Assembly: GCA_018266475.1 (NCBI GenBank)
Contig: JAFEAI010000262.1
Location: forward strand, 1-33,910
Origin: Bacteroidota bacterium
Lineage (GTDB): Bacteria > Bacteroidota > Bacteroidia > Flavobacteriales_F > PHOS-HE28
Direction: 5' to 3'
Length of the DNA stretch: 33,910 bases
Shown: positions 355 through 19,769 of the stretch, piece by piece
Layout: the number at the start of each line of letters is the position of its first letter
Numbering within the stretch: the stretch's first letter is position 1
The notes under the pieces: generated by a model
The model's input: only the letters and a program-made list of their open reading frames with translations
Databases searched by the model: none
Told to the model about the DNA's origin: nothing
Translations under genes and position numbers: made by a program

Positions 355-1287
355 CTACCGCCGTTTCAAATACCCCAGCGCCTCCAGCGTATCCGCCAAC
401 TGCTCCGTGAAAATGCGCGCACCGGTGGTGTTCAGGTGGCTATTGTCCTCAAACCAGTTGCGGTCGTCGATGCCGGGGGCATCCGTGAAGTCCAAATAGG
501 AAACACCGGTGCTGCGGGAGATATGGGCAAGGTAACGGACCAACGTCTCGTGTGCGCTGCCCCGGCGGTCGCGCCGGGCATAGTGGCTGCTGATTACCAC
601 GGGGATGCCACGCTCGCGGCACAATGCCAAGGTTTGCTCAAGAAAGTCCTGCATGCAAGGGGCCAGCAACACGGGTTTTTGAGGTGGAGCCGGGGCATCG
701 GTCTTCACGCTGTCCGGGTTGGAAACAAACCCTAGGCCCGCATAGGCCGTATCTGTGTAAAACGGGGTGGAATTTTGTGCCAGCAGCCGCAAGGCAACCA
801 TGTTCATGCCACGCAGGTCGTGCAGGCTCCACGCCATGCCTGCTGCAGCGGCATCGCTGGGCTGGTTCTGGGTTAAGTCGGCGGTGCTTTCCAGGGCCGT
901 TCCTTGCATTACGCCCTCATAGGTGTCAAAGATCAGCAGCCCCGTATTGGCGGAATCAAGGAATTCCTTTACCAGCCAGTAAGTGTTCAAAGGGGCTTGT
1001 GCGCTACTGCCCAGGTTGAAGGCCGCCAGGCCCCGCCCGGTGAAGACAAAAGGGTTGTAACCCCGGTAAGCATGGGAGGATCCGATGATCACCACATCAT
1101 AGTGCTGGTTTGGATTGAACTCCCTGTACCGTACCCAGCTATCGCCCCCGGGCCAGTTGTAGTAGTCCGCCGTTCTGTAGATCAGTGGCTTGCCTTTTGG
1201 AAACCGGCCCAAGAATGCCACAGCTCCGGCATAGAGCACCAAAGCGGAGCACAAGAAAACAGCGCTTCGTTTCAGGAAATTCAGCAT
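355..1287 (-). CDS. SGNH/GDSL-like acyl-transfer protein, copy 1
   Basis: A 310-residue protein with one N-terminal membrane segment (about residues 9-27), so it is probably anchored in the inner membrane with its domain in the periplasm. A block I motif IIGSSHAYRGY (Ser71 as likely nucleophile, by analogy with GDS) and a late DNSHLN (D-x-x-H type) fit the SGNH hydrolase fold used by DltD/AlgJ-like partners of MBOAT acyltransferases. It is the last gene of the leftward block and lies 91 bp after a close paralogue (1379-2317). Their C-terminal 40 residues are nearly identical, which points to tandem duplication. Expected role: receiving or transferring acetyl groups on exported polysaccharide. 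Family assignment is by motif only; the acceptor is unknown. Confidence 0.75.
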   Translation of the reverse strand: MLNFLKRSAVFLCSALVLYAGAVAFLGRFPKGKPLIYRTADYYNWPGGDSWVRYREFNPNQHYDVVIIGSSHAYRGYNPFVFTGRGLAAFNLGSSAQAPLNTYWLVKEFLDSANTGLLIFDTYEGVMQGTALESTADLTQNQPSDAAAAGMAWSLHDLRGMNMVALRLLAQNSTPFYTDTAYAGLGFVSNPDSVKTDAPAPPQKPVLLAPCMQDFLEQTLALCRERGIPVVISSHYARRDRRGSAHETLVRYLAHISRSTGVSYLDFTDAPGIDDRNWFEDNSHLNTTGARIFTEQLADTLEALGYLKRR

Positions 1288-1378
1288 CAGAGTTCCAAAT
1301 GGATCGGATGAACAATGCTGCCAAGGTGATGCTGCCTATCCATCAGCAGGGTAGTGGGAACAAGGGAATGGCCTGCGT

Positions 1379-2317
1379 TCATTTCAGGGAGTGCAAATAC
1401 CCCAGCGCTTCCAGCGTATCCACAAGCTGTTCGGTGAAGATCCGCGCTCCGGTGGCGTTCAGGTGGTTGTTGTCCTCAAACCAGTTGCGGTCGTCGATGC
1501 CGGGGGCATTGGTGAAGTCCAGGTAGGGTATGCCTGACCCGGCCAAGGCTTTCGGCAGGTACCGGAGCATTCCCTCATGTGCGCGGCCCCGCTTATCCCG
1601 GCGTTCAAAGTGGCTGCTCAGCACCAGCTTGATGCCGCGCTCACTGCACAGGCGGATGATCTGTTCCGTAAAGTGTTTTTGGTCGGCCCGCAGGGGCATC
1701 GGGTCAGCAGGGGGCGGGCCGGCCTCGGTCTTTATGCTGTCCCCGGTGGTGCAGAAGCCAAGCCCCTTGTACAGCGGGGATCCATAGAGCGGACGCTCCG
1801 GGCGGGCCAGTAGCCGTAGGGCCAGCATGTTCATGCCCCGCAGGTCGTGCAGGCTCCAGGCGATGCCCGCCGCAGCGGCATCGCTGGGCTGGTTCTGGAT
1901 AAGGTCGGAGGCGCCTTCCAGGGCCTCGCCTTGTAAGATCTCATCGAAGAGGTCCATGATCAGCAGCGGCGTGTTCACGCTGTCCAGATAGGCCTTCACC
2001 AACCAATAGGTACACAGCGGTGATTGCGCATCCGACCCCAGGTTGAAGGCGCGGTAGCCGCGTTCCGCGACCACGTAAGGGTCATAGCCGAGGTAGGCGT
2101 GCGAGGAGCCGATGATCACCGCATCGTACCTCCCCTTGGGGTCGAACTCCCGGTAGCGGGTCCACGTGGAGCCGCCGGGCCTGATGAAGTAGTCATTGGC
2201 ACGGTAAATGGCGGGTTCGCCCAGCACGGGCACATGCACCATCAGCGCCATTGCAGCCACGTACAGCATCGTGGTGGCCGCAAGAAACACCCCGCCGCGC
2301 TTCAGGAACCGCCCCAT
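1379..2317 (-). CDS. SGNH/GDSL-like acyl-transfer protein, copy 2
   Basis: A 312-residue paralogue of the next gene downstream, with an N-terminal membrane segment, IIGSSHAYLGYDP (SGNH block I) and DNNHLNATG (D-x-x-H). The frame stays open upstream to 3175, but that part only shadows the MBOAT gene. The ATG at 2315-2317 overlaps the MBOAT stop by one base (TGATG), so translational coupling to the acyltransferase is likely and fixes the start. MBOAT plus SGNH pairs such as AlgI/AlgJ O-acetylate extracellular polysaccharides; here the MBOAT is followed by two SGNH copies. Whether both are active cannot be told, but both keep the Ser and His motifs. Confidence 0.8.
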   Translation of the reverse strand: MGRFLKRGGVFLAATTMLYVAAMALMVHVPVLGEPAIYRANDYFIRPGGSTWTRYREFDPKGRYDAVIIGSSHAYLGYDPYVVAERGYRAFNLGSDAQSPLCTYWLVKAYLDSVNTPLLIMDLFDEILQGEALEGASDLIQNQPSDAAAAGIAWSLHDLRGMNMLALRLLARPERPLYGSPLYKGLGFCTTGDSIKTEAGPPPADPMPLRADQKHFTEQIIRLCSERGIKLVLSSHFERRDKRGRAHEGMLRYLPKALAGSGIPYLDFTNAPGIDDRNWFEDNNHLNATGARIFTEQLVDTLEALGYLHSLK

Positions 2318-3786
2318 CAGAACTGGAAGTAGATGAAGCTGGTGGCCCCGAAGTAGCCGAAGAGCAGGATGCCCACCAGCAGCGCGGCGTAGGCCATGGT
2401 GCCCCACAGCCCCCGGGGAGCGGCTTTCTCGCGCTTCACCCAGGCGTCCACCACCGGGTCCATGGCCATGAACAGCAGGGTGAGCAGCACTGTGACGTCC
2501 AGCATGCCGCGGGGCAGCTCCTTGTACAGGGCGCGCAAGTCGTCTAGCGTGGCCGCCGTGCCGAACAGGCGGTGGATCAGCGTGGAGGCATCGTGGATGT
2601 TGGCCGCCCGGAAGAAGATCCATGCGAAGCTCGCCAGCTGCACGGTGATGAAGATGTTCAGCCAGCGCTTGGCCTTGGGCAGCGCATCCAGGCCGATGCC
2701 CTTGGTGATGCGCGCCAGCAAGGGTGCGAACACGATCGCCAGGATCAAGTAGCTGCCGTGCAGCCCCCCCCAGATCACGTACGTCCAGTCCGCGCCGTGC
2801 CACAGGCCGCTCACTAAGAACACCACCAGCAGGTTGTAGTACCAGCGCCACTTCACCACGCGGTTGCCGCCCAAGGGGATGTACAGGTAGTCGCGGAACC
2901 AGCTGCTGAGGCTGATGTGCCAGCGGCTCCAGAACTCGCTGATGTTCCTGCTGAGGTACGGCGTGCGGAAGTTCACCATCAGGTTGAAGCCCATCACCCG
3001 GGCGGCCCCCAGCGCAATGTCCGTGTAGCCGCTGAAGTCGCAGTAGATCTGCACGGCGAACAGATAGGTGGCCAGGGCGATGGAGAGCGCACCGTAGTGG
3101 TCGGGGGCGTTGTACACCTGGTCCACCACCACGGCGCAGCGGTCGGCGATCACCAGCTTCTTGAAAAAGCCCCACAGCATCTGCTTCAGGCCCTCTATCA
3201 CGCGGTCCGCATCAAAGCGGGCGCGCATGCCCGTGCCTTCGGTGCGGGAGTTGATCTGGTTCAGCAGGTTGGCCGGCCGCTCAATGGGCCCGGCCACCAG
3301 CTGCGGGTAGAACATCACGTACAGGGCGAAGATGCCCGGGCGGCGCTCGGCCTGCTGGTGGCCGCGATACACCTCTATGGTGTAGCTCAGGCTCTGGAAG
3401 GTGTGGAAACTCAGGCCGATGGGCAGCAGGATGCCCAGGTCCGGCACACCGTAATTGAACCCCAGCCCGCGCACCAGGGCCGCGATGCTCTCATTGAGGA
3501 AGTTGAAGTACTTGAAGAAGGCCAGCACCCCTACGTTGGCCACAATGCTGGCCGTGAGCAGCAGCTTTCTCCTGCGGCCTTCGCTGCGTTCGATCCACAG
3601 CCCCGCAAAGTAGTCCACCAAAATGGTGAAGGCCAGGATGAGGATGTACACCGGCACGAACGTCATGTAGAACCAGCAGCTGGCCACTAACAGCAGCAGC
3701 CAGCGCCAGCGGTGCGGCAGCACGAAGTACAGCCCCGTTACCAACGGGAAAAAGATGCAGATGAACTCGAAGGAGTTGAAGAGCAT
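2317..3786 (-). CDS. MBOAT family O-acyltransferase (AlgI-like)
   Basis: A 489-residue polytopic membrane protein with the MBOAT core: QIYCDFSGYTDIALG (about 246-260), SEFWSRWHISLSSWFRDYLY (283-302, His290), IPLGGNR (303-309) and SGLWHGADW (326-334, His330 the likely catalytic residue). Length and motif order match AlgI/PatA-type enzymes. These move an acetyl group from the cytoplasm to a periplasmic partner that modifies polysaccharide. The ATG is 6 bp after the stop of the upstream glycosyltransferase, and its stop overlaps the start of an SGNH gene, so the three form one transcription unit. Substrate is inferred only from the polysaccharide context. Confidence 0.93.
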   Translation of the reverse strand: MLFNSFEFICIFFPLVTGLYFVLPHRWRWLLLLVASCWFYMTFVPVYILILAFTILVDYFAGLWIERSEGRRRKLLLTASIVANVGVLAFFKYFNFLNESIAALVRGLGFNYGVPDLGILLPIGLSFHTFQSLSYTIEVYRGHQQAERRPGIFALYVMFYPQLVAGPIERPANLLNQINSRTEGTGMRARFDADRVIEGLKQMLWGFFKKLVIADRCAVVVDQVYNAPDHYGALSIALATYLFAVQIYCDFSGYTDIALGAARVMGFNLMVNFRTPYLSRNISEFWSRWHISLSSWFRDYLYIPLGGNRVVKWRWYYNLLVVFLVSGLWHGADWTYVIWGGLHGSYLILAIVFAPLLARITKGIGLDALPKAKRWLNIFITVQLASFAWIFFRAANIHDASTLIHRLFGTAATLDDLRALYKELPRGMLDVTVLLTLLFMAMDPVVDAWVKREKAAPRGLWGTMAYAALLVGILLFGYFGATSFIYFQF

Positions 3787-5298: not shown

Positions 5299-6558
5299 CT
5301 ACGCCTTCACTTCCCACGGTATGTTCATCCGCACCACGCCTTTGCGGCGCCCGTGCCAGGCACTGGTGCGGGGCGGCTCCGTGATGGTGAAGGAGACGGC
5401 GTTCTCCACCTGGAACTGTTGGCGGTCCATGCGCCACACGGTGAGGGTAAGCCGAAGGTCGTCTGCATTGAAAAGATGGGCGGGGAAGCGGCAGGCCAGC
5501 AGGTGGCGGCCCTTGCCGATCACGCGCTGGGGCAGTGCTTCCAGCGCGTGGGTGGTGAGGATCACCTGGTCGTCGCTGTTCACCACGTCAATGGAGATGT
5601 CCAGCGGGCTGGCGCCCTGGTTGCGCAGTTCAACTTCCACCAGCACCTCGTCGCCCCAGTTGAACACATCGCCGCCGGCACCGGGGCTTACCCGCACCCG
5701 GCGCAGTTGTATTTCCTCGTTGCCCGGCGCATTGTGCTCGCCCCAAGTTACTTCGCTGGTGCCGTGCGAGTACTGCCCGAGGTAGGCGTTCACCACCTCC
5801 TCGGTGGGGCCCAGCATGCGCACACGCCCGTTCTCCAGCCACAGCACGCGGGAGCAAAGCGCGCGTACCGCCGTCATGTTGTGGCTTACAAAGAGCACGG
5901 TGCGGCCGCTCACCGCACTGCTCTTCATCTTGCCCATGCTCTTGCGCTGGAACTCGGCATCACCCACCGAGAGCACCTCGTCCACGATCAGCACTTCGGG
6001 CTCCAGGTGTGCCGCAATGGCAAAGCCCAGGCGGACGCGCATGCCGCTGCTGTAACGCTTCACCGGGGTGTCCAAGTGGTGGGTGATCCCGCTGAAGGCC
6101 ACGATCTCGTCCAGCTTGGCGCTCACCTCCGCCTTGCGCATCCCCAGGATGGAGCCGTTGAGGAAGATGTTCTCCCTGCCGGTGAGCTCGGGATGGAAGC
6201 CGGTGCCCACCTCCAGCAAGCTGGATACCTTGCCCCGCATGCGGATGGTGCCTTCCGTGGGCAGGGTGATCCGCGAAAGCAATTTCAGCAACGTGCTTTT
6301 ACCCGCGCCATTGCGGCCCACCACGCCCAGCACCTCCCCGTGGCGCACATCGAAATTGATGTCGCGCAGCACCCAGAAATGCTGGCCGATGCGTTGCTGG
6401 TCCGCCTGCCGACCAAGGGGAATGGTGGGATCCGGCCGGCCAAGGATGCGCGCTGTCAACGCCTTTACCTCGTCGGCCAACTGGCGGTGGTCGGTAACGC
6501 CCAATCGGTAGCGCTTGCCGAGGCCTTCCACTTGTACCAATAAGTCCGAAGTTGACAT
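5299..6558 (-). CDS. wzt: Polysaccharide ABC exporter ATPase, Wzt type
   Basis: A 419-residue protein. Residues about 1-260 are an ABC ATPase: Walker A GRNGAGKST (81-89), signature YSSGM (169-173), Walker B VLIVDE (189-194) and switch His226. The segment around 20-60, before the core strand, is the extended N-terminus seen in the KpsT/Wzt/TagH group. Residues about 265-419 form an extra beta-rich domain like the Wzt C-terminal domain, which in O9a-type systems recognises the capped end of the glycan. It pairs with the permease gene at 6882-7745 and powers export of a lipid-linked polysaccharide across the inner membrane. It is separated from that gene by a repeat array, which is unusual for a Wzm/Wzt pair. 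Confidence 0.93.
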   Translation of the reverse strand: MSTSDLLVQVEGLGKRYRLGVTDHRQLADEVKALTARILGRPDPTIPLGRQADQQRIGQHFWVLRDINFDVRHGEVLGVVGRNGAGKSTLLKLLSRITLPTEGTIRMRGKVSSLLEVGTGFHPELTGRENIFLNGSILGMRKAEVSAKLDEIVAFSGITHHLDTPVKRYSSGMRVRLGFAIAAHLEPEVLIVDEVLSVGDAEFQRKSMGKMKSSAVSGRTVLFVSHNMTAVRALCSRVLWLENGRVRMLGPTEEVVNAYLGQYSHGTSEVTWGEHNAPGNEEIQLRRVRVSPGAGGDVFNWGDEVLVEVELRNQGASPLDISIDVVNSDDQVILTTHALEALPQRVIGKGRHLLACRFPAHLFNADDLRLTLTVWRMDRQQFQVENAVSFTITEPPRTSAWHGRRKGVVRMNIPWEVKA

Positions 6559-6881: not shown

Positions 6882-7745
6882 TCAGATCACATCCGCAAAA
6901 TTCCGTTGTGCCCGCTGGAACAACGCCAAGCTGGCCAGCAGCACTATAACCGAAACCGCCGAAGCGTACCAGAGGGTGCCCCAGTTCATGTCGGTGCCCA
7001 GGAGCGCGCCGCGAAAGCCTTCAATGATCGGCGTTACCGGATTGGCCTCCAGCCAGAAGCGCACCTTGCTGTCCGGGGCCACCTTGCTCAGCGGAATGAT
7101 CACCGGGCTCATGTACATCAGCAGCTGCACGCCGAAGGCGATCAGGAAGCTGAGGTCGCGGTAGCGGGTGGTGAGGGCCGCCACAATGAGGCCGCAGCCT
7201 ACGGAAAGCGCGATCACCTGCAGGATCAGCACCGGCAACCACAGCAGTTCGGGGCCGGGGCTCCAGGCGTAGCTGCCGCTGATGCGGTAGATGATCGCAA
7301 ACACAAAGAACAGGACGAGCTGCACCAGGAAGGTGAACCCGTTGGAAGCGGTGGTGGCCAATGCCGGGATCACCCGGGGGAAGTAGACCTTGGTGGTCAT
7401 GGAGGCGTTGAACTGCAGGGTGATGGCCGTTTTGGTGATCACCGCCGCGAAATAGGTCCAAGGCACTATGGCGGCCATGTAGAACAGCAGGCCCGGTATG
7501 CCGGGCTGTGACATGCGGGCCACTAAGCCGAAGATGATGGCAAACATGATGGAGGTGATCAACGGCTGCACCACCACCCATAGCGGGCCCAGGATGGTCT
7601 GCTTGTAGATGGCCGTCAGGTCCCGCATGGTCAGCTCCCGCAACAGGTCGCGGTAGCGCCAGATCTCCCCGAACTCCAGGTCCCACCACGGCTTCGCCGG
7701 CGTTACCACCACGTCCCAATCCTCGTTTTTCCGATGTGCCATCAA
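6882..7745 (-). CDS. wzm: Polysaccharide ABC exporter permease, Wzm type
   Basis: A 287-residue ABC-2 type permease with about six hydrophobic segments. An N-terminal cytoplasmic stretch reads LLRELTMRDLTAIYKQTILG, and PLWVVVQPLI and a late NPVTPIIEGFRGALLG follow, all typical of Wzm/RfbA/KpsM proteins. It forms the membrane channel for glycan export together with the Wzt-type ATPase at 5299-6558. The start is ambiguous between two adjacent ATG codons at 7745 and 7742. It lies 24 bp downstream of the BY-kinase gene, so the two are probably co-transcribed. Family assignment is firm; the exported substrate is inferred. Confidence 0.93.
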   Translation of the reverse strand: MMAHRKNEDWDVVVTPAKPWWDLEFGEIWRYRDLLRELTMRDLTAIYKQTILGPLWVVVQPLITSIMFAIIFGLVARMSQPGIPGLLFYMAAIVPWTYFAAVITKTAITLQFNASMTTKVYFPRVIPALATTASNGFTFLVQLVLFFVFAIIYRISGSYAWSPGPELLWLPVLILQVIALSVGCGLIVAALTTRYRDLSFLIAFGVQLLMYMSPVIIPLSKVAPDSKVRFWLEANPVTPIIEGFRGALLGTDMNWGTLWYASAVSVIVLLASLALFQRAQRNFADVI

Positions 7746-7769
7746 TCCTGCATGCGCCGCTGTGTCCGC

Positions 7770-10205
7770 TCAGCCAGCCTGTTCGGGTCCGTTGCCCTGG
7801 CCGGGAGGCTGCTTGCCCCGGGCGTCCTTGCCGCCCCGCTTGCGTCCTTGGCCGTAGCCGTAGCCATAGCCGCCGTACCCGTAGGCATAGCGGTAGCCAT
7901 AGCCGTAGTTGCTGTTGTAGTAGTACTTGCTCTTTTTCATCCTTACGCCATTGAGGATGAAGCCGAAGTTCCTGGCCGCGTTGGCGTCATGCACGTCCAT
8001 GGCGTTGCGCACATGGTCGCGGTTGGCAAAGCGGGTGTTGATGACGAAGAGCGTGGCGTCCGCCTGGCGCATCATCAGCAGCGCATCGGTGATCAGGCCC
8101 ACGGGCGGGGTGTCCACCATCACATAGTCGTAGTGCTGGCGGCCGTAGGCGAAGATGTCCGCGAGCTTGGGGCTCAGGATCAGTTCCGAGGCGTTGGGCG
8201 GGCTGCTGCCGGCCAGGATCACGTCGAAGTGCTCGATGGAGGTGTGCATCACGCATTCTTCAATGCCCGCACGCCCGGCGAGGATGGCGCTGATGCCCAC
8301 CTTGTTCTTCATGCCCAAGCCCGTGCCCACCTTGGGCTTGTGCAGGTCCAGTTCCAGCAGCAGCACCCGCTTGCCGGCCTTGGCCAGGATGGCGCTCAGG
8401 TTCACCGAGCAGAACGTTTTGCCTTCGCTGGGGCGGTAGCTGGTGAGCATCACCATGCGGCCGCCCTCGGTGGCGGGCAGGTATTCCAGGTTGGTGCGGA
8501 TGGTGCGGAAGCTCTCGGTGATGGCCGCCTTGGGGTCGCTGTCCACCACCACGTAGTGTTCCTCGGCCTTTTCGCTGGCGATCACTTCGCCGTACACCGG
8601 CACCTTGGTGGTGGCGCGCAGTTGCTCGGCATTGTCCACGCGGTCGTAGAACAGCACCCGCACGAACACCAGCAGCATGGCGATCAGGCCGCCGCCCACC
8701 AAAAAGCTGTACAGGATCTTGGTCTTGTTGGGCCGGATGACCCCCAGGGCGCGCGCCATCTCGATCACCTTGGTCTGCGGCATGATGCCCGCCCGTGCGA
8801 TCACCGTGCTGGCGCGCTTTTCCAGCAGGAACTCATACAGCTTTTCATTCACGCCCACCTTGCGCTGGAAGGTCTCCAGGTCGTGCTGGTTGCCGGGCAC
8901 GGCCCGGATCAGGCCGGTGTACTCGTTGGCCTGCTTTTCCACGTCGGAGATCTTCTGCTCAATGGCTGCGCGCGTGTTCTTCAGGTAGATCAGCAGGTTG
9001 GCCTTGGTGAGCTGGATCGTCTTCTTGTTCTCCTGGATCAGCGGATTGTCCGGCTCCATGGAATAGCTCAGCCGGTTGATGTCCATCTGCATGCTGTACA
9101 GCTGGGTGAGCGTGGCCTTCAGGAACTCATCGTCGTTCAGGATGTAGAAGGAGGGGGGGAGCAGCTTGCCCTCGCCCAGGGTGGATACGTACTGGTTCAG
9201 GGCATCCACGCTTTCCACCATCAGCTGGTACTGGCGCTTCTGCGCGTCCAGGTTCACCAGCTGGTCGAAGTACATGGTGCTTTCCTTGTCCAGGTCCAAA
9301 ATGTCCTTGCTCTGCAGGAAGCTCTGCAGGTCGGTTTCGTACTGGGTGAGGATCCCCGATACTTCGGCCAGCTGCTTGTCGATGTACCGCAGGGTGTTTT
9401 CATTCACCTCCACGTCCCCCTGCAAGGTGTACTTGATGTATTCGCTGCACAGGGTGTCCAAAAAGAGCTTGGCCCGCTCGGAGACCTCATCCTCCACGGT
9501 CACCTTCAGCACCGAGGTGTACTGGATGTCGTCCACCTTCAGTGCATCGGAGTACTTGGCCACCTGGCGCTCCCGCGCGTGCCGGATGAAGCGGTAGTCC
9601 GTGGCGGTGTATTTGCTGATGGTGGAGGGCGTAAGGTCCACATTGGGCGTTACCCGCAGCGTGAAATCGGCATCGGCCACGTCCTTGTTGAAGGTGAATT
9701 GCTTGGTGACCACGCCCTGCCCGGGATCGTAGCTGATCGAGTAGGTCTTCGGGTCGATGATGTGCAGGTCGATCGGCCGCTCGTACAACTTGGGGTTCAG
9801 CACCTGCATGTCCACCGCAAAGGGCAGCCCGCTGTACACTTCCGTGGTCTTGAAGCGCCCGATGATGTAGTACGATACCTCGAAATCCAGCTTTTCAAGC
9901 GTGCGGTCGATCAGGTCGTAGCTGGTGAGCACGCGCTTTTGATTGATCACGTCGCCGTACGGATTGATGTACCCGATGTTGCGGAACATCTGGTTCTGGT
10001 AGTCGTAGGCGGTAACGTCCTTCAGCAGGATCTGGGCACTTGCCCCGTACACGTTCGGGATCTTGTAGGAATAGAGATAGGAGAGCACCGCGGAAAGCAC
10101 CAAGGCGATCACCACGAAGTACCAGTTCTTGGAAACGATGCGGCCTACCGTCCGCAGGTCGTTCACCTCGATGATGCCGCCTTTGGGGCCGGGAACTGCT
10201 GCCAT
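7770..10205 (-). CDS. wzc: Polysaccharide co-polymerase with BY-kinase domain (Wzc-like)
   Basis: An 811-residue protein. A Wzz-type region is bounded by membrane segments at about 28-46 and 497-520, with a long periplasmic coiled-coil part between them (about 270-470). The cytoplasmic tyrosine kinase domain has Walker A SYRPSEGKT (589-597), Walker A' LLLELDLHKP (615-624) and Walker B YVMVDTPP (694-701). The C-terminal tail holds 12 tyrosines between 761 and 784, mostly alternating with glycine, followed by a basic Gly/Lys/Arg stretch. In the Wzc family, cycles of tail phosphorylation control chain length and export. Neither a Wzb-type phosphatase nor Wza is in the window. It heads the leftward export operon. 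Its presence beside Wzm/Wzt is notable because Wzc normally serves Wzy-dependent systems. Confidence 0.95.
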   Translation of the reverse strand: MAAVPGPKGGIIEVNDLRTVGRIVSKNWYFVVIALVLSAVLSYLYSYKIPNVYGASAQILLKDVTAYDYQNQMFRNIGYINPYGDVINQKRVLTSYDLIDRTLEKLDFEVSYYIIGRFKTTEVYSGLPFAVDMQVLNPKLYERPIDLHIIDPKTYSISYDPGQGVVTKQFTFNKDVADADFTLRVTPNVDLTPSTISKYTATDYRFIRHARERQVAKYSDALKVDDIQYTSVLKVTVEDEVSERAKLFLDTLCSEYIKYTLQGDVEVNENTLRYIDKQLAEVSGILTQYETDLQSFLQSKDILDLDKESTMYFDQLVNLDAQKRQYQLMVESVDALNQYVSTLGEGKLLPPSFYILNDDEFLKATLTQLYSMQMDINRLSYSMEPDNPLIQENKKTIQLTKANLLIYLKNTRAAIEQKISDVEKQANEYTGLIRAVPGNQHDLETFQRKVGVNEKLYEFLLEKRASTVIARAGIMPQTKVIEMARALGVIRPNKTKILYSFLVGGGLIAMLLVFVRVLFYDRVDNAEQLRATTKVPVYGEVIASEKAEEHYVVVDSDPKAAITESFRTIRTNLEYLPATEGGRMVMLTSYRPSEGKTFCSVNLSAILAKAGKRVLLLELDLHKPKVGTGLGMKNKVGISAILAGRAGIEECVMHTSIEHFDVILAGSSPPNASELILSPKLADIFAYGRQHYDYVMVDTPPVGLITDALLMMRQADATLFVINTRFANRDHVRNAMDVHDANAARNFGFILNGVRMKKSKYYYNSNYGYGYRYAYGYGGYGYGYGQGRKRGGKDARGKQPPGQGNGPEQAG

Positions 10206-10258
10206 GGTGCTTCAAGGAGCCGCCCGTTCCGTGGAAGAGGCGGATTTTGCAAGGGCGG

Positions 10259-10266
10259 CAAATATA
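10259..10266 (-). promoter_or_regulatory. Candidate -7 promoter element for the kinase gene
   Basis: On the minus strand the sequence is TATATTTG, an exact match to the Bacteroidota -7 consensus TAnnTTTG, 53 bases before the kinase ATG at 10205. I see no convincing TTG -33 box 18-21 bases further upstream, so this is a candidate only. Confidence 0.45.
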
Positions 10267-10310
10267 GCCAAGGGTGGCCGTGGCGGGGTGGGAGAGTTCA
10301 TTGGTCCCCG

Positions 10311-10384
10311 TTCGTAGTTGGCAGGGGGTAGTTCGTGGTTCGAAGTTCGTTGGGCGGGGAGCGGTGGTAGTTGTTGGTTGTCAG
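10311..10384. repeat. Degenerate GTTCGTGGTTCG-type word run
   Basis: A stretch of imperfect short words of the form GTAGTTGG / GTAGTTCGTGGTTCGAAGTTCG / GTAGTTGTTGGTTG. It has no coding potential and lies between the kinase promoter and the larger array at 10508-10890. Together they fill the 826-bp gap 10206-11031, which contains no gene I can support. Confidence 0.6.
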
Positions 10385-10507
10385 GCCGCAAGGTGGGGGC
10401 ATATCCACGTTGCCGCCAGGGTGCCCGCTTTTACCGCCACCAACGGAGCCCCGGAGCCTGTATTTGCCTGTAGCCAACGCCACGCCGTATCCCTTCGCGT
10501 GATGCAT

Positions 10508-10890
10508 TTCTTGGCGCCCTTCGCGTCTTGGCGGTAAAATCCTCCCATCCCCCGCATTCTTGGCGCTCTTTGCGTCTTGGCGGTTCCTCCTTGGGCCATG
10601 TCATTCTTCGCGCCTTCGCGTCTTCGCGTGAGGCCCCCTTCCCGTGAGGCATTCCACGCCCCCTTCCCGTCTTGGCGGTAAAATCCTCCCATCCCCCGCA
10701 TTCTTGGCGCTCTTTGCGTCTTGGCGGTAAAAATCCTCCCATCCCCCGCATTTCTTGGCGCCCTTCGCGCCTTGGCGGTTCCTCCTTGCCGCATGCCATT
10801 CTTCGCGCCTTCGCGTCTTCGCGTGAGACCCCCTTCCCGTGAGGCATTCCACGCCCCCTTCGCGCCTTTGCGGTAAAAATCCTCCCAACG
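10508..10890. repeat. Higher-order array of CTTGGCGCCCTTCGCGTCTTGGCGG-type units
   Basis: A short unit, C-TTGGCG-(C/T)-(C/T)CTT-(C/T)GCG-(T/C)CTTGGCGG, recurs at about 10510, 10558, 10702 and 10754, usually followed by TAAAATCCTCCCATCCCCCGC. A longer block of about 110 bp, containing CTTCGCGCCTTCGCGTCTTC and GTGAGGCATTCCACGCCCCC, occurs at about 10582-10695 and again at about 10777-10887, 195-196 bp apart. Reverse-strand open frames across it encode only repeat-derived peptides (KTRRREE-type) and are not genes. No CRISPR-like constant spacer size is present. Confidence 0.9.
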
Positions 10891-10985
10891 GCTAAGACAC
10901 CTGTCCCATGCATGCCCCCATCACCCAAACCGGGGGCAAAAGATCAACGCCAGGCAAGTGGAAAACTCAATTAAGCAAATCCTTC

Positions 10986-10993
10986 TACATTTG
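10986..10993 (+). promoter_or_regulatory. Candidate -7 element for the exosortase cassette
   Basis: TACATTTG matches TAnnTTTG exactly and lies 38 bases before the ATG at 11032, in an otherwise empty stretch after the repeat array. No clear -33 TTG is found at the expected distance. Confidence 0.45.
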
Positions 10994-11031
10994 GCCGTTC
11001 GCGATTTCATTCCTTCCTTGTGATCGATGCC

Positions 11032-11250
11032 ATGAACAGATTCCTACGCTTCGCCCTGCTGGCCGTGCTGCTGGCGGCACCACTGGCTGGAGCCTTGTTT
11101 GCCCAACCCGGCCCCGGGGGACCGCCTCCCTGCTGGCCGCCGCCCTGCATTCCCATTGACGGTGGGCTTTCCCTGCTGATCGGTGCCGGCGCATTGCTGG
11201 GCGGAAAGAAGGCACTGGACGCCCGAAAGGTCCGCAAGACGCAACTGTAA
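11032..11250 (+). CDS. Small secreted protein with PID-type C-terminal sorting tail
   Basis: A 72-residue protein. I prefer the ATG at 11032 over 11020 because the signal peptide then begins properly (MNRFLRF, then a hydrophobic core ending ALFAQ, about residue 25). What remains is a very short Pro/Gly/Cys body (about residues 25-40, two cysteines in PPCWPPPC), then PIDGG (41-45), a hydrophobic stretch SLLIGAGALLG (47-57) and a basic end from KK (59-60). This tripartite tail (short motif, hydrophobic segment, basic residues) is the layout of exosortase substrates. It resembles the Bacteroidota tails named PID-CTERM. Its stop TAA overlaps the exosortase ATG by one base, so it is very likely the cognate substrate. 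The function of the mature peptide is unknown. Confidence 0.75.
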   Translation: MNRFLRFALLAVLLAAPLAGALFAQPGPGGPPPCWPPPCIPIDGGLSLLIGAGALLGGKKALDARKVRKTQL

Positions 11251-11810
11251 TGCGGGCGGGCTTGCCGCTCACCCGCGCGGGCCGCGATCCCCTGTACCGC
11301 TTCCTGCTTACCGCCGCCCTGCTTTACTTGGGGTGGTATCTGCTGTATGCTTTTGTGCTCCACCCCTGGGGCGTGTTGGACCATGCCGTGATCGGCTCCC
11401 TGATCAGCGTGGCAGGCACCATCCTCACCCTGCTTGGCTATGACCTGATCCCCGAGCCGGTAAACGCCGACAACATCCGCACCATCGGCGTGGAAGGCGG
11501 CCATCTGCTGTGGATCGGGGATCCCTGCAACGGCGTGGGGCTGTTCGCCGTGTTCCTCATCTTCTTAGTGGCCTACGGCGGGCCCTGGAGGCACAAGCTC
11601 TGGTTCGGTGCCTTGGGCATAGCCTCCATCCACCTGATCAATGCCTTGCGCGTGGCGGCGCTGTGCATCGTGGTGAGCATCAACTATGAGTGGCTCAACT
11701 TCAACCACGACTACACGTTCTATGTGATCGTGTACGGCTGGGTGTTTTTCCTGTGGTACATCTGGGTGAGGCGCTTCGCCACCCGGAAAGTTGCCGCTGA
11801 AGCGGAATGA
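11250..11810 (+). CDS. xrtF: Exosortase family protein, XrtF-like
   Basis: A 186-residue polytopic membrane protein with the three exosortase/archaeosortase catalytic residues in their usual contexts: Cys93 in DPCNGVG, Arg134 in NALRVA and His153 in FNHDYTFY. Exosortases are thought to cut tripartite C-terminal tails and pass the protein to a surface anchor, usually in exopolysaccharide-producing bacteria. The short length and the following associated gene fit the XrtF type of Bacteroidota. It overlaps the upstream substrate candidate by 1 base and the downstream gene by 4 bases (ATGA), so all three are translationally coupled. The XrtF sub-type is inferred from context and length; the superfamily call is firm. 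Confidence 0.88.
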   Translation: MRAGLPLTRAGRDPLYRFLLTAALLYLGWYLLYAFVLHPWGVLDHAVIGSLISVAGTILTLLGYDLIPEPVNADNIRTIGVEGGHLLWIGDPCNGVGLFAVFLIFLVAYGGPWRHKLWFGALGIASIHLINALRVAALCIVVSINYEWLNFNHDYTFYVIVYGWVFFLWYIWVRRFATRKVAAEAE

Positions 11811-12283
11811 AAGGGCGCGGGATCCGGTGGGACCGCCGCGTGGAGGTGGCCTTGGTGCTGGCGGCGGCAATCGCCTACGGCAGTTGGCGCGAGTTCACCT
11901 TCATCAACCTCAACTACCAGATCGACCACCTGGCCCACCATACGCCCTTCTCCTACGCGCACTCCATGGTGCAGGGCTGGCTGCGCGGCTGGGGCCTGCA
12001 GGCGGTGCTCGCCCTCAAATGGTTCCTGGCGTTCTTCTCCATGGCCGTGATGGCAGCCCTGTGCGCCGTGCTGGCCCGCATCCTGCTGGGCACCTGGCGC
12101 CATGCCGGCCCCATCTTCATGGCCTTCACCGGGTTTGCCCTGCTTTCGCTTGCCTTGCACTTCCTGGCCCGCCAGGTACCGCCGTTCGAGCTGGTGGCCG
12201 TGCAGCTGTCGCACATGCTGCAGTACCCCGTGCCTTTGGTGTTTGTCCTGATCGCCGCTTCCTTGGCCCAAGGCAAGGATTAG
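11807..12283 (+). CDS. Exosortase F system-associated membrane protein
   Basis: A 158-residue protein with about four hydrophobic segments (roughly 15-30, 62-85, 95-120 and 135-155). Position, size and topology match the small integral membrane protein that accompanies XrtF in Bacteroidota. The N-terminal loop NLNYQIDHLAHHTPF lies after the first segment. Its biochemical role is unknown even in the family; it may help present the substrate. Its ATG overlaps the exosortase stop (ATGA), and it ends directly before an inverted repeat that could act as a transcription end. I recognise it mainly by context. Confidence 0.7.
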   Translation: MKGRGIRWDRRVEVALVLAAAIAYGSWREFTFINLNYQIDHLAHHTPFSYAHSMVQGWLRGWGLQAVLALKWFLAFFSMAVMAALCAVLARILLGTWRHAGPIFMAFTGFALLSLALHFLARQVPPFELVAVQLSHMLQYPVPLVFVLIAASLAQGKD

Positions 12284-12288
12284 CCCCC

Positions 12289-12342
12289 CGTCATTGCGAG
12301 GACCCGTGGTCCGAAGCAATCCAGGGCGGCCTCGCAATGACG
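12289..12342. repeat. Short inverted repeat, family of 1-322
   Basis: CGTCATTGCGAGG (12289-12301) pairs with CCTCGCAATGACG (12330-12342), with CCGAAGCAATCC between. It begins six bases after the stop of the exosortase cassette, and the perfect 13-bp arms could form a hairpin that ends that transcript. It is a compact version of the two 161-bp units at the left end of the window. Confidence 0.88.
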
Positions 12343-12394
12343 AACAGGCTTCGGCCCGCTGCCGCTACATTCGCGCGGCCCCGGGAAACAAGGA

Positions 12395-13510
12395 ATGAAC
12401 AAGGGCGCATGTGGAATGGCGAGGATCAAGAAGCTCATGGTCGTAGTGGGCACACGCCCCAACTTCATCAAGGTGACGCGCTTCAAGCAAGTGGCGGCTG
12501 ACCATGGCATGGAGGTGTGCCTGGTACACACCGGCCAGCACTATGACGACAAAATGAGCACCGTGTTCTTCGATCAGTTCGGCCTGCGGCCGGACCGCTT
12601 CCTGGACACCCCGCCCACCACCCCGGCCGCGCAGATGGGCCACATCATGATCGCCCTGGAGGCCGAAGCCAAGCAGTGGAAGCCCCACCTGATGGTGGTC
12701 CCCGGTGATGTGAACAGCACCCTGGCCGGGGCGCTCGTGGCCAACAAGATGGGCATTCCCTTGGCGCACTTGGAGAGCGGCCTTCGCAGCGGCGACATGC
12801 ACATGCCCGAGGAGATCAACCGCATCCTCACCGACCGCATTACCGACCAATTCTTCGTCACCGAGCAGAGCGGCATCGATCATTTGCTCGCCGAGGGCAG
12901 GCCCAAGCAAGCCATCCACTTCACGGGCAACACCATGATCGATACCCTGGTGGCTTTTGATGCGCAGGTGCAGGCCGCCACCGTGCTGCAGGACCTCGCA
13001 CTCGGCAGCGGCGGGCATGTGCTGATGACCATCCACCGGCCCGCCACCACCGACAATGCCGCCGAGCTGGCCAAGCTGGTGGGGCTGATCGCCTTTGTGG
13101 CCAAGGACCGCCCCGTGGTGTTCCCCGTACACCCGCGCACCACCGCCAAGCTGGAGGCCACCGGCCTGATGCCCAAGCTCAACGCATTGAAAAACCTGCG
13201 CCTCACCGGGCCCATGGACTACTTCAGTTTCCAAAAGCTCATCGCCACCTGCGCCTTTGTGGTCACCGACAGCGGCGGCATCCAGGAGGAGACCACCTTC
13301 CGCCAAGTGCCCTGCCTTACCCTGCGCCCCAACACGGAGCGGCCGATCACCGTAACCATGGGCACCAACGAGCTGATCACCTTCGACCTGGAGGCGCTGC
13401 GCGATGCCATCCTGCGCATTGGGAACGGCACATTTAAGAAAGGGCAGGTGCCGCCATACTGGGACGGCCATGCCACCGAGCGCGTGTTCGACGTACTTGA
13501 AAAGCTGTGA
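12395..13510 (+). CDS. wecB: UDP-N-acetylglucosamine 2-epimerase (non-hydrolysing), WecB-like
   Basis: A 371-residue enzyme of the usual family length that interconverts UDP-GlcNAc and UDP-ManNAc or a relative. Motifs: VVVGTRPNFIK near the N-terminus, VHTGQHYDDKMS, GDVNSTLAGA, HLESGLRSGD followed by PEEINR, and DSGGIQEE near 290. An alternative start at 12416 (MARIKK) would remove seven residues and fits the family alignment slightly better. TACATTCG at 12366-12373 is a one-mismatch -7 element. It shares a GTGA overlap with the next gene. It probably supplies ManNAc-type precursor for the amidated or acetylated sugars inferred from the neighbouring genes. Confidence 0.92.
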   Translation: MNKGACGMARIKKLMVVVGTRPNFIKVTRFKQVAADHGMEVCLVHTGQHYDDKMSTVFFDQFGLRPDRFLDTPPTTPAAQMGHIMIALEAEAKQWKPHLMVVPGDVNSTLAGALVANKMGIPLAHLESGLRSGDMHMPEEINRILTDRITDQFFVTEQSGIDHLLAEGRPKQAIHFTGNTMIDTLVAFDAQVQAATVLQDLALGSGGHVLMTIHRPATTDNAAELAKLVGLIAFVAKDRPVVFPVHPRTTAKLEATGLMPKLNALKNLRLTGPMDYFSFQKLIATCAFVVTDSGGIQEETTFRQVPCLTLRPNTERPITVTMGTNELITFDLEALRDAILRIGNGTFKKGQVPPYWDGHATERVFDVLEKL

Positions 13511-17893: not shown

Positions 17894-19720
17894 TTATATA
17901 TTGTACAATTTTGGAATGGAATTTACTATTTCAATAACTCTTTCAAAATCCATCCCTAATGTATCGAGATACCAACGGATGTTTTGATAACGAGGGCGGT
18001 TTTCCTCTTCCACCAACTCCAATGCACGCTCCCGCGTGATTTGTCCTTCACGAATTTGGTTGCTTCGAAACGTATCGTGCTCTGTGAATCCGGCAACGGT
18101 GTAGTAAACATAGTTGTAAAATGCGGCTGTGCCATCACCTATCCGCCATGTCGTTTTCGTATCTGGTGCCAACTCCCAATCATACCCGTTGATGAGTGTA
18201 TCATTCACCAAGTCTTCATCCCATCTCCAGTAGTCAAACACGTGATAATAGTCTTTCTTCTCCGTAAAGCTGCGATAATATTCTCCTGACAAGGTATCCC
18301 ACAGGGACGAGTTGAAATAACCCATACTTTTCGTCATCGCAGCAAACCGCTTAATGTGATACCTGAGCTGCTTCAGCGCACCATGACTATATACGCGCAC
18401 TTCTTCAAAGTCCGGTTTGATATTCAAAAAACCTGTTTTGAAATGTGTGATCTCAAGTGGGTTAACTCCCCATAGATTAAGTTGGACACCCGTTTGCTTC
18501 TTCACATCTTCAACATGCCTAAAGAAATGTTTGTCACCGGCAGTAAGCATGGCCATCATCCCTAAGTGGGGAGCCTTTAACCATGCTTCAAGATTCATTC
18601 TGATGTTTTTCCTTTTCAATGAAATGTCCGCGGCGACAATGATATTCTCCACTCCCAATTGCGCACACATGCGGCTGATATTCCTTCTGCCTAAATCCGT
18701 AACCATGCCCCAGTCATACGTATAGGTGACAGGACGGAGATTTAGTTCATTCACAATCAGATGCAAGCTGTAGCAACTGTCCCTTCCACCAGAAAACGGG
18801 ACAATACATTCTAAGCCACTGTTTCGTCTGTACGGATCAACCAATTTGAATAGTTCCTCTTTCGGCTTTGGATTGTTTCGTAATTTATAGCTGCGACAAT
18901 AATTGCAAACCCCATTTTCATCAAAGTGAATATATGGCATAGTTTCTGGCAAGATGCATTTTGTGCATCTTTTTAAGCGTGGTTGTGCAAATGCTAATAA
19001 TTTCTCCTGCTCTTTGTTATACTTGAATTCAGGAATTAAATTTTCTTTACGTATATTGAAGTCATTAAGAATGTAATTGTTATTACTCGCAACAGGAATA
19101 TCTATGATTTTATATGATCGGCAAATATGGGAGATGTGCTCGCATCCGATTTCTGTCAAGGGATAATTTTCTGAAGCGAAATAAGACGTCTTTCCCTTTG
19201 TGCCGATATACAAGCTGCCATTATTAGAAATTAGGATAAGTTTGCCTATGTTTTGGATCAGAATGGCGCAAGATACTATCCCTTTACATCTTGCCATTAT
19301 GACATCTGCCAAGGAGTCAAGTGAAGCATTATTCTTCAAATGCTCAATGGTGATAGCGGCCAAAGCCTCGGAATCAATTACGTACTTTCTTTTTACTGAA
19401 AGGCTTTTCCACACATCATCTTCATTTACTATTATTCCATTGTGAAGAACAAACACATTGTCGCGTATAACGGGTTGATTATCTGAAAGGCCATTTGTAA
19501 TCAACCTGCTGTGACCTAATGCAATAGATGAATCATATAGATTGGTTTGGTTTAGTAGTTTTTCTATACTGTAGTCAGCTCTGAAAATTTGATAGGTGCC
19601 ATCTTTAATATATATTAAACCGGAAGAGTCTTTTCCTCGCTGTTCGGCGTGTTTCACCAACAGATTTAGTTCATTATGGTTTACTGTACCATTAGAAACT
19701 ATTCCAAAAATGCCACACAT
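17894..19720 (-). CDS. Class II glutamine amidotransferase fused to N-acetyl sugar amidotransferase (WbpG-like)
   Basis: A 608-residue protein. The frame can be opened from a TTG at 19729, but the true start must be the ATG at 19720, because processing then exposes Cys2 (MCGIFG) as the class II glutaminase nucleophile. Residues 1 to about 200 carry GHSRL (69-73), HNG (93-95) and DSEAL (116-120), the glutamine site of PurF/GlmS/AsnB enzymes. Residues about 250-608 carry a zinc-type pair CTKC and CNYC (Cys252, 255, 272, 275) and the PP-loop PFSGGRDS (308-315) of the WbpG/WbuX family, which uses ammonia and ATP to make acetamidino sugars. The classical systems take ammonia from separate HisH/HisF-like proteins, none of which is here; the fusion supplies its own glutaminase. 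AT-rich like its neighbour. Confidence 0.9.
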   Translation of the reverse strand: MCGIFGIVSNGTVNHNELNLLVKHAEQRGKDSSGLIYIKDGTYQIFRADYSIEKLLNQTNLYDSSIALGHSRLITNGLSDNQPVIRDNVFVLHNGIIVNEDDVWKSLSVKRKYVIDSEALAAITIEHLKNNASLDSLADVIMARCKGIVSCAILIQNIGKLILISNNGSLYIGTKGKTSYFASENYPLTEIGCEHISHICRSYKIIDIPVASNNNYILNDFNIRKENLIPEFKYNKEQEKLLAFAQPRLKRCTKCILPETMPYIHFDENGVCNYCRSYKLRNNPKPKEELFKLVDPYRRNSGLECIVPFSGGRDSCYSLHLIVNELNLRPVTYTYDWGMVTDLGRRNISRMCAQLGVENIIVAADISLKRKNIRMNLEAWLKAPHLGMMAMLTAGDKHFFRHVEDVKKQTGVQLNLWGVNPLEITHFKTGFLNIKPDFEEVRVYSHGALKQLRYHIKRFAAMTKSMGYFNSSLWDTLSGEYYRSFTEKKDYYHVFDYWRWDEDLVNDTLINGYDWELAPDTKTTWRIGDGTAAFYNYVYYTVAGFTEHDTFRSNQIREGQITRERALELVEEENRPRYQNIRWYLDTLGMDFERVIEIVNSIPKLYNI

Positions 19721-19769
19721 TTTATGCAATTAATGTAAGGTGACCGAAAAGTTTCGTTTTAATGAGGCA

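Follow-up and report, generated by a model that had tools for sequence, protein, structure and literature searches.

To our knowledge, exosortases have become known almost entirely through their sequences, and for Bacteroidota the question is what they attach and why. The question takes a reduced form in the window (the whole stretch of 33,910 nucleotides analysed here, contig JAFEAI010000262.1 of a Bacteroidota bacterium), where a three-gene cassette at positions 11032-12283 encodes, as read from its frames, a protein with a PID tail, an exosortase and a small membrane protein: what would an exosortase do with one dedicated substrate that has almost no body? The reading favoured here, with a probability of roughly 0.38, sees in the cassette an exosortase X system that serves a single dedicated micro-substrate, whose two-cysteine peptide would be a docking partner, anchor or organiser for RemA-like adhesins of the type 9 secretion system (T9SS).

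Organisation and family assignment of the cassette

The first gene (11032..11250, + strand) starts with an ATG at 11032, ends with a TAA at 11250 and encodes a PID-CTERM micro-substrate of 72 amino acids (MNRFLRFALLAVLLAAPLAGALFAQPGPGGPPPCWPPPCIPIDGGLSLLIGAGALLGGKKALDARKVRKTQL). The exosortase gene (11250..11810, + strand, 186 amino acids) opens with an ATG at 11250, the TAATG forming a 1-base overlap with the PID gene, and the third gene (11807..12283, + strand, 158 amino acids) starts at 11807 within an ATGA, a 4-base overlap with the exosortase gene. The trio of frames with overlaps of 1 and 4 bases, on which the original prediction was built, is borne out by these coordinates (11032-11250, 11250-11810 and 11807-12283). 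Between wzc and the PID gene (10514-10878) lie imperfect direct repeats with units of 71 and 127 nt (for example CTTCGCGTCTTGGCGGTAAAATCCTCC), and 3' of the cassette (12290-12350) a palindromic repeat-like element (GTCATTGCGAGGA...TCCGAAGCAATCC ... CCTCGCAATGAC), whose exact pattern occurs once in the genome.

The enzyme belongs to the exosortase/archaeosortase superfamily (TIGR04178, 47 bits, cut-off 23; Cys, Arg and His present), and its residues Cys93, Arg134 and His153, which had been picked out beforehand, are at the positions given then and invariant in 81 XrtX homologues. It had been labelled XrtF; this identity was ruled out, the XrtF model (TIGR04128) giving 76.2 bits against a cut-off of 90 and the best match being to exosortase X (NF046081, 166.4 bits). 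The latter score is 3.6 bits under the cut-off of 170, and full-length exosortases of the same genus score 156-182 on this model, about two thirds of them above 170. Because the window enzyme is below the cut-off and the genus members straddle it, the term XrtX-type is used rather than strict XrtX. XrtX matches were found in 40 of the 45 genus genomes searched (the window's own included) and in 133 of 197 relatives. A plasmid search for the exosortase gave no match.

The third protein scores far under the cut-off of the XrtX-associated model (NF046082, 24.2 bits against 75). It was considered a divergent XrtX-associated membrane protein because it directly follows XrtX and has common conserved residues (R28, F32, N36, K71 and P141, invariant in 16 sequences including class members). 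Its helical model is good (pLDDT 89.6), with no fold match in the PDB.

The micro-substrate and its two cysteines

The 72-residue protein begins with a predicted signal peptide (residues 1-24; 11032..11103, + strand), read from the sequence with a cut between ALFA and Q, an AQ junction that recurs in relatives. This is followed by the presumed mature peptide, QPGPGGPPPCWPPPCI, of 16 residues (11104..11151, + strand, with predicted ends), which contains the two-cysteine core CWPPPC (11131..11148, + strand). The remainder is the PID-CTERM sorting tail (11152..11247, + strand), made of PIDGG (residues 41-45), a hydrophobic stretch and a basic end, and matched at the C-terminus by NF046080 over residues 41-62 (27.7 bits, curated cut-off 26). 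A PID-tailed protein of this length, with about 16 residues before PIDGG, is what had been described at the outset.

In every genus genome with a long enough contig (39 of 39, the window and 38 others), the small PID frame lies ahead of the exosortase gene; in the 40th genome (G040), outside this count, the contig end cuts the locus. A search of the window genome with NF046080 returned one PID tail over the cut-off, the cassette's own, and no larger PID-tailed protein over the cut-off. The original proposal of a dedicated substrate with hardly any body, coupled to its enzyme, is thus supported, both by the conservation of the frame next to the exosortase and by the scan for other PID tails. 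CWPPPC is encoded in all 39 genomes with codons that vary synonymously (Pro, Cys, Ile, Asp and Gly codons), which argues for selection on the peptide and not on the DNA. PIDGG is present in all but three of them, and those three have PVDGG.

Class-wide, PID-CTERM matches are nearly all on short frames, and the PID proteins of about 200 relatives are essentially all tiny, with Pro/Gly-rich bodies of a few to about 30 residues when inspected one by one. Two long PID-tailed frames (1128 aa in G026 and 337 aa in G007) were rejected as genus orthologues in which the frame happens to be open upstream, and a frame of 702 aa in G187 is a weak match below the cut-off. In one family (L081:3911-4090, L091:3911-4090 and L103:3983-4207) the mature part has only about 6 residues, and the PID genes lie 100-170 bases downstream of a gene grouped by clustering with membrane acyltransferase-like proteins, not directly behind a T9SS cargo gene. 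A small protein with the tail LPIDSNAVYLG... (L169:7713-7958), missed by the PID model, is encoded beside a weak XrtX-like enzyme (69 bits); from this tail, the substrate class may be wider than the PID model.

Among 121 PID proteins, the 16 residues before PID contain two cysteines in 81 cases, none in 40, and one or three in no case. In a second set of 36 XrtX-adjacent PID proteins, separate from the first and fetched afterwards from named Flavobacteriales/Bacteroidota genomes new to the analysis, a tiny PID frame again precedes XrtX and exactly two cysteines are present in 36 of 36. Two body layouts recur, CWPPPC-[IV]-PIDGG and a broader one in which C-x6/7-C abuts PIDGG, the spacing of the pair varying from C-x4-C to C-x7-C. 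This pattern of a pair or none is what a disulfide loop predicts and probably reflects one, other paired roles being possible. The second cysteine is 1-2 residues before PID (0-2 over all classes), a position that would also suit lipid attachment sites, as proposed for MYXO-CTERM, where conserved cysteines are needed for cleavage (PMC11980579); the product would then be a tiny surface lipopeptide. We consider this improbable, since a pair of cysteines or their absence is better fitted by a disulfide, and since the exosortase, which has no relation to myxosortase, brings a catalytic cysteine of its own. One genome (G100; L086-L089 and L122) carries five PID proteins, all without body cysteines, together with an XrtX match that ranks second among all those seen (248 bits); the cysteine pair is therefore not needed for XrtX as such.

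Glycan genes around the cassette

Upstream of the cassette, on the - strand, are genes for a Wzt-like ABC polysaccharide exporter ATPase (5299..6558; NF010065 and NF050108 below cut-off), a Wzm-like ABC polysaccharide exporter permease (6882..7745; weak NF050109 and NF050053 matches) and a Wzc-type polysaccharide co-polymerase/tyrosine kinase (7770..10205; TIGR01007, 153.8 bits, cut-off 108). A Wzc-type gene accompanies XrtX in 24 of 40 genus loci and 22 of 41 class loci, and Wzm/Wzt-like export genes in 13-15 and 12-14 of the same loci, respectively. An exported glycan or glycolipid is therefore a plausible acceptor for the exosortase. The WecB-type UDP-GlcNAc 2-epimerase on the other side (12395..13510, + strand; TIGR00236, 265.3 bits, cut-off 210) had been read as a meaningful neighbour; its adjacency is poorly conserved, and it is regarded as incidental because a WecB-type gene is present in only 7 of the 40 genus XrtX loci.

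Elsewhere in the window, at 355-3786, an MBOAT-type acyltransferase-like gene precedes a pair of genes for similar secreted or membrane proteins that look by eye like the SGNH kind, an arrangement that suggests that the glycan of the locus is acetylated. The protein encoded at 17894-19729 has amidotransferase glutaminase matches in its N-terminal part and a WbuX N-acetyl sugar amidotransferase match in its C-terminal part, and is apparently a fused amidotransferase.

A glycan locus of this kind, and the known tie of exosortases to exopolysaccharide loci (PMC1569441), would fit the role first proposed for the peptide, that of a tag, linker or decoration on the locus's polysaccharide with no specific adhesin partner. 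The genes found next to PID genes in other genomes, and the distribution of XrtX, bear on this proposal.

Large T9SS cargo proteins with an A2 domain

For PID genes located away from XrtX, and for many of its direct neighbours, the start lies no more than about 100 bases after the end of a same-strand gene for a large protein (roughly 600-2000 aa). The nearest same-strand upstream gene has a T9SS type A sorting domain for 49 of 73 class-level PIDs, although this class of protein makes up only a few per cent of the gene complement (102 to at least 150 matches per genome in seven genomes). Many of the upstream proteins have in common a domain of some 440 residues that adjoins the T9SS tail on its N-terminal side and is here called A2; it is encoded immediately upstream of 45 of 87 class PIDs. 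The PF11999 ice-binding domain was tried as the common feature of PID-upstream proteins and given up for A2, being present in 1 of 6 scanned proteins and in 24 of 197 genomes.

A2 has no match in Pfam but has homologues in F. johnsoniae, in the corresponding regions of the T9SS cargo proteins RemA and RemZ (PDB 8gl6 and 8gl8; E 9e-25 and 2e-24). Its model is confident and beta-rich (pLDDT 83.9), with no PDB match under E 0.001 by Foldseek; with VIA-align, Z was 5 or less and only to generic beta-sandwich parts of glycosidases, giving no clear fold relative. A2 could be a new domain family.

PID, XrtX and A2 proteins are all present in the window genome, where two A2 proteins with PKD domains are encoded in tandem on another contig (G000:C279; L189:391-6771 and 6917-12100), their T9SS type A tails scoring 21.8 and 29.0 bits (cut-off 23). 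Within the window's genus, an A2 gene is beside the PID gene in 0 of 38 cases; the PID gene is kept next to the exosortase gene and the adhesin genes are at other sites, which counts against the favoured reading. PID bodies without cysteines likewise adjoin A2 proteins, and CWPPPC therefore cannot be the universal contact. No clear pattern of covariation was seen between the PID cysteines and the cysteine content of the adjacent large protein.

The precursor consists almost only of two hydrophobic segments and a conserved loop, and is translationally coupled to the enzyme. It could on these grounds be imagined to stay uncut and form a membrane hairpin of two helices, its short periplasmic loop serving the XrtX complex as a fixed subunit, with XrtX acting on other targets, for example the T9SS cargo or its anchor. 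The PID tail is nevertheless recognised as a sorting signal, and many PID genes are far from XrtX, beside cargo genes and in several copies per genome, as expected of substrates; we therefore regard an uncut subunit as distinctly unlikely.

Co-inheritance of XrtX and A2

The first sample comprised 191 genomes carrying the T9SS core protein SprA, in which XrtX and A2 occur together in 126, XrtX only in 6, A2 only in 7 and neither in 52 (Fisher p = 4e-32, phi 0.84); Fisher values here and below ignore shared ancestry, genomes of one family not being independent, and are to be read as a strong association and not as exact probabilities. With families uniform for XrtX as units, the corresponding counts are 29/1/1/22 (p = 1e-12). 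Nine families are mixed for XrtX, and in seven of them A2 changes exactly with XrtX; of the other two, family 4 has one departing genome out of five, and in family 6 the three departing genomes are only 65-85% complete. XrtX-negative genomes have at best A2 fragments of about 60-100 residues with at most 32 bits, against 200-550 bits for most positives. In a second sample of 246 other genomes the counts are 117/15/16/98 (p = 1.5e-34, phi 0.75), the number with A2 being a lower bound as few candidates were scored per genome. PF11999, taken as an unrelated adhesin-type control family, is weakly associated with XrtX (p = 0.036). The A2 domain was not detected in 3 of 61 strict XrtX genomes, and 22 class genomes with an XrtX match had no PID match at E 0.01, so some of the links may be lost or undetected.

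In these distributions the enzyme and giant secreted adhesins are inherited jointly, which suggests that the peptide may help to mount or organise the adhesins on the cell surface. Along with the two-cysteine core, they suggest a specific partner rather than a generic tag. If the peptide were only a decoration of the polysaccharide, neither the joint gain and loss of XrtX and A2 T9SS proteins nor the PID genes that follow A2 genes would be explained, and that role is judged unlikely.

In F. johnsoniae, deletion of xrtF or of its partner gene leads to the same loss of biofilm and colonisation as in T9SS mutants (PMC10936215), which is consistent with exosortase and T9SS surface pathways meeting, the enzyme there being XrtF. 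The same phenotype, and a product that is short, Pro/Gly-rich and conserved, might also be expected if the peptide were released to act as a secreted signal or as a small component of the matrix, its association with T9SS adhesins then reflecting a shared lifestyle such as biofilm growth. Against this stand the operon-level coupling of PID genes to A2 genes and the weak association of the independent T9SS/adhesin-type family PF11999, which make a free peptide very improbable.

Proposed mechanism and significance

From the sequences we infer a pathway of cleavage, disulfide formation, transfer to an acceptor and binding to an adhesin. The 72-aa protein would be exported by Sec and lose residues 1-24 to signal peptidase, the PID tail keeping the precursor in the inner membrane. 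XrtX, with Cys93 as nucleophile, and its partner protein would then cut the precursor at PID to give the predicted product QPGPGGPPPCWPPPC(I/IP), and the new C-terminus would be transferred to an acceptor, the likeliest candidate being a glycan or glycolipid that leaves the cell through the Wzc/ABC exporters encoded nearby. The cysteine residues would probably close CWPPPC into a small ring. Alternatively, they could form a mixed disulfide to a partner, an option raised by the precedent of SprF, in which twin cysteines tie a surface motility protein to another part of the envelope by disulfides (PMC12635249). The displayed peptide would finally act as the docking partner, anchor or organiser of T9SS-delivered RemA-like adhesins, in the window genome the G000:C279 pair. 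A narrower version, which we hold to be rather doubtful, is that XrtX makes a glycan- or lipid-bound two-cysteine micro-peptide as the dedicated surface dock or anchor of these giant adhesins, the peptide and not the adhesin carrying the attachment; this would be a division of labour in which the sorting enzyme anchors just a peptide of 10-20 residues.

A single near-fixed substrate of about 16 residues represents the simplest exosortase reaction, with a product open to chemical synthesis, detection by mass and mutation of each residue in turn. Should the co-inheritance with RemA-like cargo reflect function, it would join two separately studied surface pathways (exosortase and type 9 secretion), give a concrete and testable partner for the colonisation and biofilm phenotype of Bacteroidota exosortases, and explain the failure to find large PID-tailed proteins.

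Comparison with known systems

PID-CTERM, XrtX and the XrtX-associated protein are already named in NCBIfam (NF046080, NF046081 and NF046082), and the window cassette has the identical three families, gene order and enzyme residues; it belongs to a named kind and is therefore not categorically new. VPEID-CTERM with exosortase E may be another case of a short dedicated substrate beside its exosortase. In the open-access literature, nothing substantive was found on PID-CTERM, XrtX or VPEID-CTERM, and no description of the two-cysteine body or of a T9SS partner, NCBIfam curator notes aside. The micro-substrate rule, the paired-cysteine core and the co-inheritance of XrtX with RemA-like T9SS proteins go beyond the published descriptions found there.

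RemA and RemZ of F. johnsoniae resemble the system through the region homologous to A2, outside the window (E about 1e-24). RemA interacts with galactose-containing EPS (PMC8481357), and the papers searched gave no link between it and an exosortase peptide. XrtF (TIGR04128; Fjoh_1448) is, like the window enzyme, a Bacteroidota exosortase with a small membrane partner; it differs in that a strict-XrtF locus (L165, 214 bits) has no adjacent PID gene and its genome has no A2 domain. MYXO-CTERM, a tripartite tail at the C-terminus, likewise has conserved cysteine(s) adjoining its cut site (PMC11980579), whereas myxosortase is an unrelated protease acting on full proteins, and the PID cysteines are paired or absent. 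PEP-CTERM and EpsH (XrtA) are alike in combining a sorting tail with a Cys/Arg/His membrane enzyme near exopolysaccharide genes (PMC1569441); their substrates are many, diverse and mostly in single-gene operons, whereas the window has one tiny, near-fixed peptide in the operon of its enzyme.
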